The notes beneath the pieces are model-generated. The model was not told the origin of the DNA. It ran no database searches and was given only the letters and a program-made list of their open reading frames with translations. DNA of 36,048 bases, taken from contig JAJFFW010000010.1 in assembly GCA_021776435.1 (NCBI GenBank), positions 1 to 36,048 of the forward strand, given 5' to 3'. The translations under genes and the position numbers were made by a program. Numbering within the stretch: position 1 is the first letter of the stretch; each line of letters opens with the position of its first letter. This DNA is from Parvularculaceae bacterium (lineage in GTDB: Bacteria; Pseudomonadota; Alphaproteobacteria; Caulobacterales; Parvularculaceae). This document shows, in pieces, positions 1-35,478 of this stretch.

Positions 1-21
1 CATTATGCAGCACGCTCAAGA

Positions 22-139
22 CGAACTTCGGATTCGATAAGGACACTAGCAAGTTTATGATTCTAGTGTGGTTTTGGATTTAAAGTTCGTTGTGAGCAAG
101 CTGCGAATTATGTAACGAACTTCAAATCCACCACACTAG
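22..139. repeat. Three related copies of an intergenic repeat, two forming an inverted pair
   Basis: Positions 63-91 (starting CTAGTGTGGTTTTGGATTT and ending AAGTTCGTT) are the imperfect reverse complement of 114-139 (AACGAACTTCAAATCCA then CCACACTAG). The only differences are one substitution and a three-base insertion of T. A third, more divergent copy in the orientation of the second lies at 22-50 (GAACTTCGGATT, then GACACTAGC). The inverted pair could form a 26-bp hairpin around a 22-nt loop. No gene is visible in 1-330; this repeat and the rpmG promoter are all I can support there. Confidence 0.6.
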
Positions 140-5460: not shown

Positions 5461-5513
5461 CCAGCCTCCCCCGCGTTCCGGTAATCTACAAACCTGAAAA
5501 AATGAGATTGATC

Positions 5514-5945
5514 ATGTCCTTAAATACCGCTTATGACTCCGATAACATCTTTGCAAAGATCATTCGCGGAGATATGGCTTGCACCAAAGTATACGAAGAC
5601 AAAGATATCCTCGCTTTTATGGATATTTTCCCGCAAAGTCCGGGACATACGCTTGTCATTCCAAAAGCGATTAAGGCAATAAACATCTTTGATGTTGATC
5701 CAGACGAATTAAGCACTCTAATTATTGGTGTGCAAAAAATCGCGAAGGGTGTGCGTAAAGGTCTCAATCCGGACGGTTTACGGATCATTCAGTTCAATGG
5801 TGCGCCAGCAGGTCAAACTGTTTTTCATATTCATTTTCATATCATCCCCATATATTCTGAAAAAGCGCTTGCTTCCCATGGAGGCGGCGCATCCGACCCT
5901 GCCAAGTTACGGCTGCTTGCGTCGAAAATTGCATCTTCCATTTGA
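5514..5945 (+). CDS. HIT family hydrolase
   Basis: Histidine-triad nucleotide hydrolase, acting on phosphoramidates or dinucleoside polyphosphates. The 143 residues include IFAKIIRGDMACTKVYED at the start, the IFPQSPGHTLVIPK strand and the triad His105-Ile-His107-Phe-His109 (FHIHFHIIP), so the active site is complete. Starting at 5514 gives the usual MSLNTAYDSDNIFAKI start; an in-frame ATG at 5502 would add MRLI. Neither has a strong ribosome binding site. It ends the dinB-RidA-acyltransferase run on the plus strand. Confidence 0.92.
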   Translation: MSLNTAYDSDNIFAKIIRGDMACTKVYEDKDILAFMDIFPQSPGHTLVIPKAIKAINIFDVDPDELSTLIIGVQKIAKGVRKGLNPDGLRIIQFNGAPAGQTVFHIHFHIIPIYSEKALASHGGGASDPAKLRLLASKIASSI

Positions 5946-6069
5946 TCACTCACGAAGCAGTGAAAAAAATCGCGCATCCGTGTATTGCGAGTGACCATTA
6001 TAGGCCATAAATTCAACTTGCGCCTCAGGGAACGCGAAACTCTGAAACGCACTGTCTTTCTAAGACTAC

Positions 6070-6159
6070 ATAAGTAACGCGCCCCTAGCCCCTCCCCTAT
6101 AGTGGGCGCGACAATTAAAGAGACCGCCGCATATCCCCCCACGGCGGTCTCTTTTTTTT
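6070..6159 (+). ncRNA. Candidate small RNA with two C-rich hairpin loops
   Basis: After the HIT gene there is no open frame until 6317, yet the stretch ends in a strong terminator. Hairpin 1: CGCGCCC (6078-6084) pairs with GGGCGCG (6104-6110), extended inside by CTA/TAG, with loop bases 6088-6099 holding CCCCTCCCC. Hairpin 2 is the terminator at 6117-6159, whose loop holds a run of six C. Loops complementary to Shine-Dalgarno sequences are typical of some alphaproteobacterial regulatory RNAs. The 5' end is unknown; I found no convincing promoter. It could instead be the 3' leader of the HIT transcript. Confidence 0.4.
6117..6159 (+). terminator. Strong rho-independent terminator
   Basis: AAAGAGACCGCCG (6117-6129) pairs with CGGCGGTCTCTTT (6142-6154), 13 base pairs around the loop CATATCCCCCCA, and continues into a T run ending at 6159. 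It ends either the HIT transcript or the candidate small RNA. Confidence 0.88.
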
Positions 6160-6210
6160 ACAACGATTTGACTTTTACAGAGGCGTAAACTTGACCGCAT
6201 CGGTTGCGTC

Positions 6211-6316
6211 CTAGAGCGTTTCCGAGGAAAAGTGGTTCGCGGTTTTCCGATTAAGGAAACGCGCAAAAAAGACTCTAGCGCTATTCCTGATTCAGTTGAA
6301 ACCGGAATGGCGCTAG
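6211..6316. repeat. Alphaproteobacterial palindromic intergenic element (two stem-loops)
   Basis: The element opens CTAGAGCG and closes GGCGCTAG. Stem 1: GCGTTTCC (6216-6223) with GGAAACGC (6255-6262), plus an inner GGAAAA/TTTTCC pairing. Stem 2: CTAGCGCTATTCC (6275-6287) with GGAATGGCGCTAG (6304-6316), 13 pairs including one G-T. From memory, this resembles dispersed CTAGAGCG-type palindromes common in alphaproteobacterial genomes. It directly abuts the DM13 fragment and is read through in its frame. Confidence 0.75.
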
Positions 6317-6567
6317 CAGGTTGCATACTTGATGCAGACTTTAGCACCAAAAAGGCGCCAGACCTTAAGATATTCCTCTCGCCGCTATCGGTGAACGACG
6401 CCAATGAAGAAAACTCAACTAAAGGGTCCCTAATGATTGCACCGCTTACCAGCAATAAAGGCGCGCAAAGTTATGAAATTCCCGAAAGTGTGGTTTTAAC
6501 GAACTACGCTTCTGTTCTGATCCACTGCGAGGCCTATGCCAAGCTTTGGAGCGCAGCGTCCCTCTAG
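6317..6567 (+). pseudogene. DM13-domain gene remnant, 5' part replaced by a palindromic repeat
   Basis: About 83 codons encode the C-terminal two thirds of a DM13 domain: DADFSTKKAPDLKIFLSP, then KGAQSYEIPESV and YASVLIHCEAYAKLWSAASL, with the conserved Cys before the end. DM13 is proposed to be an extracellular redox or electron-transfer domain. The N-terminal strands and any export signal are missing. The frame stays open upstream through the palindromic repeat to 6172, but that part looks nothing like DM13, and the only start (GTG at 6232) lies inside the repeat with no ribosome binding site. A truncated remnant is the simplest reading; a repeat-fused functional protein is less likely. Confidence 0.6.
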
Positions 6568-6648
6568 GGGGAGAGCCCTCTTCGGATCAACACATCGTCG
6601 TGATTGTGTTTGATTTGTCAATCGGGTCATTTGTATTCTAAATTTCCA

Positions 6649-33404: not shown

Positions 33405-35360
33405 CTAAATCTCCGCCGTCAGTGTGATGAGCTTCGTGCGTATCGAAACCTGTATGCCCGTACCGGCAAGCACCTCCGCAACGAGGCCGTCACGCGGGGC
33501 TTTCAACTGATGTTCCATTTTCATGGCTTCGATGGTCACAACCGTCTGACCCTTGCGAACCGTATCGCCAGCAGAGACGGAAATGCCTGTGACAAGACCG
33601 GCCATCGGCGCAAAAATGGCGTCAGCGCCAATCGCTTGATCGCCGGCGGGTGCGTAAGTGAGGTCGAGAAACCGGCGCGTCACACCATCATCCTTGATAT
33701 CGATGACATCATGATTGCGAACACAATACGCGACCTTGGTCGCACCATTTTCGAAATAGGTGAGACGACCGTCATTCCTTTTGCCTATCTGAATGTGCGC
33801 GGTTTCGTTATCCCTGGAGACGGAAATCATGTCGCCATTAAAAATGACCGCACTGTGTATCACTTCATCACCACATTGAAGAATGATTGGAACGGGTTGC
33901 GCCCCACGTGAATTCCAGCCGGTAAGAAGCGCGCCTGCTGGCGCCTTTGTGGACACGGCTGCCGCGAGCGCGATTTCGCGTAGCGTGGCGGACTCAGTTG
34001 GCGGGCAGAGACTGTCGAGATTGTGTTCAATATAATCGATATCGGCTTTACCGCTCACAAAGGCTTCGTCGCGCAATAAGCCGATCAGGAATTCCTGATT
34101 TGCGCTGACACCCAGAACGGCGCCGTTTTCAAGCGCTGCAATCAGACGGCGCCGAGCGGTTTCTCGATCGGGACCACTCCCGATAATTTTAGCCATCATG
34201 GGGTCGTAATGAGAGGTAATTTCATCTCCTGCTTCAACCCCTGAATCGACCCGGACACCCTCATCTCTCGAAAATTCGAAAGCCGTGATGACGCCGGTTT
34301 GCGGCATGAAGTTCAGGGAAGGGTTTTCAGCATATAGGCGAGCCTCAATTGCCCATCCCGAGAACTTTACGTCTTCCTGTTTTAGAGCGAGCGGCTTTCC
34401 CTCCGCGATCTCAAATTGAAGATCGACGAGGTCGAGACCAGTGATATATTCCGTTACCGGATGTTCGACTTGAAGGCGCGTATTCATTTCTAGAAAATAA
34501 AACTCTTTGGTTTCTGGGTCGAAAAGAAACTCCACAGTTCCGGCGCCTTCATAACCAACAGCCCGTGCTGCCTGGACGGCCACCGCGCCCATACTTTCGC
34601 GAAGCTCTGGCGTGATGACGGGTGACGGCGCCTCTTCAATAACCTTTTGGCGACGGCGTTGGAGTGAACATTCCCGCTCGCCAAGATGAAGGACATGACC
34701 ATGAGTGTCCGCAAGCACTTGTATTTCAATATGCCGCGCGCCAGTGATCGCCTTTTCGAGCAATAACCTCCCATCACCGAAGGCGCTTTCGGACTCTGTC
34801 CGGGCAGAGGTAAGCGCGTCCGGAAGGTCCGCTGCTTTATGAACGATGCGCATGCCGCGGCCGCCGCCCCCGGCTGAAGCTTTCACCATGACGGGAAAGC
34901 CGATTTTCGCAGCTGCTTCGATCAAGCTGTCTTCGTTCTGTTCATCGCCGTCATAACCGGGAACGCATGTGACGCCTGCCGCCATCATGCGCCTTCGCGC
35001 CTGCGCCTTGTCGCCCATGGCAGCGATCGCACTGGCTTGCGGACCGATGAATATTATTTCGGCTTTGGCGCAGGCCAGGGCGAAATCTGCACGCTCCGAA
35101 AGAAAACCATAACCGGGATGAATTGCGTCGGCGCCCATCTGTTTCGCCGCGTCAATCATAGCGTCGATATTGAGATAGCTCTCAGACGGGGCCGAGCCGC
35201 CAATATGAACGGCCTCATCCGCGCACCGAACGTGATACGCATTTCTATCGGCGTCTGAAAATACAGCTGTTGTGCGAATGCCGCGCACCCGCGCGCTGCG
35301 AATGATGCGCACGGCAATTTCACCACGATTGGCGATCAGGAGTTTGCGGATGGGGGTCAT
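33405..35360 (-). CDS. Acyl-CoA carboxylase, biotin-containing alpha subunit
   Basis: Carboxylates its biotin at ATP expense for a partner carboxyltransferase; methylcrotonyl-, propionyl- or geranyl-CoA carboxylases are candidates. The 651 residues run biotin carboxylase N domain (KLLIANRGEIAVRIIRSA), ATP-grasp (KASAGGGGRGMRIV, FLEMNTRLQVEHPVTE), C domain, a linker and the biotinyl domain with EAMKMEH, Lys614. I chose the ATG at 35360 (MTPIRKLL); the longer frame to 35420 reads through the palindromic repeat. No beta subunit is in the window; it may lie beyond 36048. The preceding gene is an acyl-CoA dehydrogenase, which favours the methylcrotonyl/geranyl type. Confidence 0.88.
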   Translation of the reverse strand: MTPIRKLLIANRGEIAVRIIRSARVRGIRTTAVFSDADRNAYHVRCADEAVHIGGSAPSESYLNIDAMIDAAKQMGADAIHPGYGFLSERADFALACAKAEIIFIGPQASAIAAMGDKAQARRRMMAAGVTCVPGYDGDEQNEDSLIEAAAKIGFPVMVKASAGGGGRGMRIVHKAADLPDALTSARTESESAFGDGRLLLEKAITGARHIEIQVLADTHGHVLHLGERECSLQRRRQKVIEEAPSPVITPELRESMGAVAVQAARAVGYEGAGTVEFLFDPETKEFYFLEMNTRLQVEHPVTEYITGLDLVDLQFEIAEGKPLALKQEDVKFSGWAIEARLYAENPSLNFMPQTGVITAFEFSRDEGVRVDSGVEAGDEITSHYDPMMAKIIGSGPDRETARRRLIAALENGAVLGVSANQEFLIGLLRDEAFVSGKADIDYIEHNLDSLCPPTESATLREIALAAAVSTKAPAGALLTGWNSRGAQPVPIILQCGDEVIHSAVIFNGDMISVSRDNETAHIQIGKRNDGRLTYFENGATKVAYCVRNHDVIDIKDDGVTRRFLDLTYAPAGDQAIGADAIFAPMAGLVTGISVSAGDTVRKGQTVVTIEAMKMEHQLKAPRDGLVAEVLAGTGIQVSIRTKLITLTAEI

Positions 35361-35364
35361 GCTC

Positions 35365-35460
35365 GTGTCATCCCGGACGCGCCGAAAGCGCGATCCGGGA
35401 CCTCCCTGCCACGCGGCCAAAAGATCCCGGCTCTCCGCTTCGCTTCGGCCGGGATGACAC
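35365..35460. repeat. GTCATCCCGG-type palindromic intergenic element
   Basis: GTGTCATCCCGG (35365-35376) and CCGGGATGACAC (35449-35460) are perfect inverted repeats. Inside are two smaller hairpins: TCCCGGA (35371-35377) with TCCGGGA (35394-35400), and ATCCCGGC with GCCGGGAT near 35424-35455. Such GTCATCCCGG elements are, from memory, dispersed in alphaproteobacterial genomes. Here it separates the acyl-CoA dehydrogenase from the carboxylase gene and abuts the carboxylase start. Confidence 0.75.
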
Positions 35461-35478
35461 GAAGAAGACGTTTCATGC

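Follow-up and report, generated by a model that had tools for sequence, protein, structure and literature searches.

Element E, a 106-bp palindromic repeat in the window (the whole stretch of 36,048 nucleotides analysed here), is probably a miniature element of the CIR type moved by a resident IS630-family transposase, and the DM13-domain gene beside it has, on this reading, lost its start, its signal-peptide-like N-terminus, the first quarter of its domain and its likely promoter. According to our sequence comparisons, E is best read as recently active, with an IS630 partner. The observations behind this reading are the copies of E, its structure, its matching left end, the missing part of the gene and the conserved order of the neighbours. 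The DM13 gene itself would be an ordinary casualty. The wider interest lies in a genome that holds identical copies of E together with a candidate transposase and in which CIR mobility, a question left open in a 2007 review, becomes testable. The features discussed are the following.

5502..5945, + strand: HIT-domain gene; its place upstream of DM13 is conserved in relatives
6054..6159, + strand: ar14-like small RNA with terminator, between the HIT gene and E (Rfam RF02344, 6054-6156)
6211..6316, + strand: element E, two-arm palindromic repeat of 106 bp with CTAG at both ends (nine full genome copies and fold)
6211..6226, + strand: left end of E, 16 nt shared with the resident IS630-family IS at its own left end (CTAGAGCGTTTCCGAG)
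6214..6263, + strand: hairpin arm 1 of E (fold and covariation)
6232..6567, + strand: 111-codon ORF from a GTG inside E into the DM13 remnant, with no signal-peptide-like start (by eye)
6271..6275, + strand: GANTC site (GACTC) in the linker of E, adjoining the internal CTAG (6275-6278)
6275..6316, + strand: hairpin arm 2 of E, bounded by CTAG on both sides; elsewhere in the genome it occurs by itself
6289..6293, + strand: GANTC site (GATTC) in the loop region of arm 2 of E
6317..6567, + strand: probable DM13-domain gene remnant, last 80 of 105 profile positions with its own stop codon; similarity certain from 6328

E occurs in nine full copies in its own genome, a draft of 2.96 Mb in 142 contigs (98.6% complete). 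All nine align over the same 106 bases, and the boundary given in the preliminary description, a 106-bp element ending at 6316, is exact. Seven of the nine copies are identical and the remaining two carry two substitutions each. As RNA, E folds into two hairpins and a linker with -44.5 kcal/mol, where shuffled sequences average -26.1 (z -5.2), and as DNA with -24.9 (z -4.8). The same genome holds partial or diverged relatives, namely a lone arm 2 (L010), a diverged inverted pair (L012) and a diverged two-arm relative that is 89% identical across arm 1 (L011). Judged from ORF layout, without a family search on the flanking ORFs, six of the nine copies lie between ORFs, in two (L004, L009) the element ends where an adjacent ORF has its stop codon, and the window copy abuts the gene remnant; none of the eight others lies inside a gene. 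No Rfam family matched E at the gathering cut-off in the window, and the seven Rfam matches at E-values up to 5 within 5930-6580 do not overlap it. A blastn search of 72,556 plasmid records returned no match to E.

The candidate partner is an IS630-type transposase gene in the same genome (DDE_3, 110 bits, L088), whose stop codon is directly followed by the reverse complement of TTAGAGCGTTTCCGAT. Left ends of the IS are found on three contigs of this genome and right ends on two, all with TAGAGCGTTTCCGA. With at most one mismatch, this 14-mer occurs at 21 places in the genome, against one for the reversed control; these are the nine copies of E, L011, the IS left ends L141, L142 and L147, the IS right ends L135 and L139, and six others. 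The left end of E agrees with the IS left end at 16 of 16 nucleotides. At the right end, however, the match to the IS end is only 11 of 15, and no single contig of this genome was seen to carry a complete IS; both points weigh against the IS630 assignment. An IS that is 89% identical, 1042 bp long and bounded by CTAG at both ends is present in another genome (G028), where its frame contains one stop. Among 22 related IS loci, tallied by eye, the right end reads NTA[GA][ACG]GC in 20 and both ends fit in 12; the best TA-anchored inverted repeat served as the left end, and six loci were too short for one. These loci comprise 14 from 11 family genomes and eight from named plasmids chosen among 283 matching plasmid records (Microvirga, Martelella, Bosea, Sphingobium, Azospirillum, Rhizobium, Paracoccus and Roseibium), and they are not independent, with two from G000 and three from G027. 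A second DDE_3 gene (L089) was rejected as the partner, showing three or four mismatches at best to the ends of E. Five further loci (L148, L150, L151, L152 and L153) carry another short element with ends TAG[AG]GCGTTTCCG, in L153 with CCGGAAATGCGCTAG, which may be another miniature element belonging to the same IS.

The DM13 domain stands in frame after E, as the preliminary description had proposed, and the profile search agrees (PF10517, 39.6 bits against a cut-off of 25). The match covers profile positions 25-104 of 105; a full domain is absent. The domain was said to continue from 6316 on. It is indeed there, but certain similarity to the relatives begins at 6328, the 11 bases 6317-6327 being ambiguous. 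The frame is open over 6172-6564 and runs through the repeat in frame from the GTG at 6232, in agreement with that description. Its picture of a repeat interrupting a continuous gene did not hold up, since nothing recognisable as a DM13 N-terminus was found upstream of E in the window. DM13 matches were found in 24 of 62 family genomes, this one included. In the relatives (Parvularculaceae, Marinicaulis MAGs) the orthologue lies in the same place with a start codon, a signal-peptide-like N-terminus and the first DM13 strands. Marinicaulis MAGs are the named records closest to this DM13, and on that basis the host is assigned to Parvularculaceae. The comparison with intact genes, which had been proposed as a check, shows an open frame of at least 68 codons upstream of the matched part in 21 of the 23 other family genomes; the remaining two are a 40-codon fragment (L036) and a locus not recovered by the script (L038). 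This 5' part is absent from the window, and no full-length homologue beginning at the same point without the repeat was found among the 23 family genomes. The upstream stretches in relatives mostly show a signal-peptide-like start (judged by eye, no predictor used) and an SGxWxKK-like motif. The fragment L036, in G012, is another degenerate DM13 copy, 40 codons long with a stop.

The neighbourhood allows the missing stretch to be sized. As in the window, HIT lies beside DM13 in 15 of the 23 family loci; among the remainder, some are cut by contig ends or short flanks. Between HIT and E lies the ar14-like small RNA, which scores 42.7 bits with RF02344 (E-value 1.6e-6), under the gathering threshold of 58.8, and whose terminator T-run ends at 6159. 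Of the 11 aligned relatives, L050, L052 and L053 have a resembling terminator between HIT and DM13, the likeness having a blastn E-value of 3e-4 for L052 and 0.04 for L050 and being judged by eye for L053. Compared with these three, and corrected by hand to the end of the T-run, the window lacks about 274-285 bp, and E stands there instead. The missing stretch comprises coding bases, the start codon and a box near TCGTGTTTTGC, which may be the DM13 promoter. Coding bases before the start of the window's similarity number 201-210 in the eight relatives measured. By eye, the box near TCGTGTTTTGC is also seen upstream of DM13 in 11 aligned relatives (among L039-L054), and a second box of this kind precedes the small-RNA-like stretch in L050, L052 and L053, perhaps as a shared promoter. 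A hand-made consensus of the missing 5' part, which matches 20 of the 23 relatives as a positive control, gave no hit elsewhere in the genome, and no second DM13 was found there either. The sequence beside E is probably a pseudogene and the gene broken. The remnant is unbroken and 68-70% identical to its three best relatives (L039-L041), whereas the identity to these three is 59-62% for HIT and 64-66% for FemAB; from this the loss appears to be recent.

In the mechanism we favor, the IS630-family transposase of the same genome would move E into TA targets, often CTAG. The variable bases outside TA, which differ between elements (for example T-TA..TA-A in L092), are as expected if TA alone is duplicated. 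In the DM13 gene, E lies exactly at the break, and the remnant would have become a pseudogene. Insertion by itself leaves the loss of ~280 bp unexplained. Our preferred cause is recombination between two copies of E, after which a single intact E would remain at the junction; a deletion adjacent to E is also possible. Both the action of the transposase on E and the loss by either route are what we infer. Several results weigh against this mechanism in addition to the imperfect right end and the lack of a complete IS on one contig. No empty site was found for any copy of E. The element is present in 21 of 62 family genomes and the IS in 11, and they occur together in four against 3.7 expected, so that co-occurrence is at the level of chance. 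Ten of 24 elements located by arm 1 lack GANTC.

The alternatives differ in how they relate E to the damage. An unrelated earlier loss of DM13 sequence is possible, and the gene might already have been decaying or have been cut by another mobile element, with E arriving later or marking the scar and no causal link between them. The eight bases after E, CAGGTTGC, are similar to two sequences, CAGGCTGC next to the IS in L121 and CAGGCTAT next to L010, and could be the edge of another IS; however, eight bases are weak evidence, and the unbroken remnant, 70% identical to its best relative, suggests that decay is recent. We regard this account as unlikely, though it is the strongest competitor. Considerably less probable is an assembly artefact, in which two direct copies of E flanking the DM13 5' part were collapsed. 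In a draft of 142 contigs with identical 106-bp repeats, an assembler could drop the DNA between two direct copies, which also counts against the favored mechanism, and at least 12 contigs begin within ~90 bp of another repeat. On the other hand, the expected neighbours stand in the expected order on both sides, the missing part of DM13 was found on no contig, and two insertions would still be needed.

The two remaining readings appear more improbable still. The preliminary description left a choice between a broken gene and a case like the Rickettsia palindromic elements. The absence of the 5' part and start region bears out the broken gene, and we give very little credence to the other, in which E is a tolerated in-frame insert and the 111-codon fusion a working protein. 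The frame is open through E, the net insertion over CTAG would be 102 bp, divisible by 3, and the GTG inside E has an upstream GAGG. But the gene lacks its start region and 24 of 105 profile positions, and the other eight copies of E, judged by ORF layout, lie outside genes. An ORF spanning the element with at least 50 codons on each side was seen at only two of 34 loci (L004 and L103; 34 were located of the 39 given, one being a repeat of the window copy), and both run opposite to long ORFs that border the element or end at it. The ORF in L103 was dismissed; the two long ORFs to its left and right run the other way. E carries two open frames; among 13 two-arm elements with lengths of 105-107 bp, seven have at least one, against 5.5 expected, and six have none. 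It seems just as improbable that E is a REP-type palindrome mobilised by a Y1 (RAYT) transposase instead of IS630. The hairpin shape and mostly intergenic placement would suit it; yet a Y1_Tnp match is absent from this genome at E-values up to 10, where a draft could miss the gene, while 10 of 14 control genomes gave matches, six above the cut-off. The TA/CTAG ends and the left end that fits IS630 also speak against it.

Related two-arm elements extend beyond this genome. All 13 elements chosen from Parvularculaceae have a GANTC ahead of the internal CTAG, a figure inflated by the pattern that selected most of them, which favored a linker GANTC, and 11 of the 13 have a second one in arm 2. Among 24 elements located by the arm-1 core alone, beyond the nine own copies, 14 carry a linker GANTC, 10 carry one in arm 2, and 10 lack the motif. 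All 33, own copies included, hold 43 GANTC sites against 13.7 expected. A covariance model built from the 13 elements matched in 19 of 241 class genomes, from 12 families, and in none of the three genomes of the same order but other families, the search covering genomes of the class and scoring up to 16 candidates per genome under strict filters. In the 33 model matches (29 of 30 loci), 94.1% of cells pair and both sides change at 23 of 29 pairs, in an alignment fitted to the model itself. None of 500 shuffles reached this level, and sliding the partners by 1-3 columns lowered pairing to 34-51%. At the class level, GANTC is present in 18 of the 33 matches, with 25 sites against 12.9 expected, and both ends fit NTA[GA]NGC in 12 of 33.

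Published repeats are compared here as far as the consulted portions of the cited papers describe them. CIR repeats (Chen and Shapiro 2003; description taken from PMC2229807 and PMC10969869) are about 110 bp long and alphaproteobacterial. E shares with them the length of ~110 bp, two hairpin arms with a linker, GANTC at an arm loop, TA ends and the occurrence in Alphaproteobacteria (PMC2229807, PMC10969869). Unlike E with its two open frames, CIR is described as having stops in all six frames (PMC2229807, PMC10969869). CIR is called strictly intergenic; E is mostly intergenic by ORF layout, with six of the nine copies between ORFs, two ending at a stop codon and one abutting a remnant. A candidate IS partner is visible for E. 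The likeness to CIR1-4 is one of published description. RUP of Streptococcus pneumoniae, proposed to move by IS630-Spn1, is like E a short non-autonomous element, of 107 bp, with ends and a TA target common with the host IS630; it differs in host and sequence, and repeats other than CIR have one stem and lack arms and linker (PMC2229807). Bru-RS1/2 of Brucella (Bru-RS 103-105 bp, near the length of E) and the intergenic, mosaic RIME of Rhizobium are likened to E by description alone (PMC2267715, PMC2573895). Rickettsia palindromic elements, of 105-146 bp, have an open frame through the element as E does, but lie in frame inside proteins, whereas at E the N-terminal part is missing and the other copies are outside genes (PMC2229807, PMC10969869). 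An IS630 partner for CIR, RIME or Bru-RS is named in none of the consulted portions of PMC2229807, PMC2573895, PMC2267715, PMC10969869, PMC5082802 and PMC3733652. Tentatively, and at well under even chances, two-arm and often GANTC-bearing repeats of Alphaproteobacteria (CIR, perhaps RIME and Bru-RS) might be miniatures of CTAG-targeting IS630 elements that chain at shared CTAGs into mosaics, and GANTC may link their transposition to CcrM methylation and so to replication. Such chaining would follow because each element ends in CTAG and inserts into CTAG.

A second repeat, M2, with two CTAG-bounded arms, occurs at about 30 places in the same genome. The CTAG at the start of E is also the end of one M2 arm in L005 and L009, where the outer flanks differ. 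Together with the lone arm 2 in L010, these few cases suggest that repeat modules appear to join at shared CTAGs. The contig of the window itself starts within a two-arm, CTAG-bounded M2 repeat (window 1-139, with a 77-bp arm at 63-139), and M2 is the repeat near which the at least 12 contigs of the draft begin, within about 90 bp of a copy. Near the other end of the window, 35356-35469 holds a 48-bp imperfect inverted repeat of GTCATCCCGGA type that is 73% complementary.
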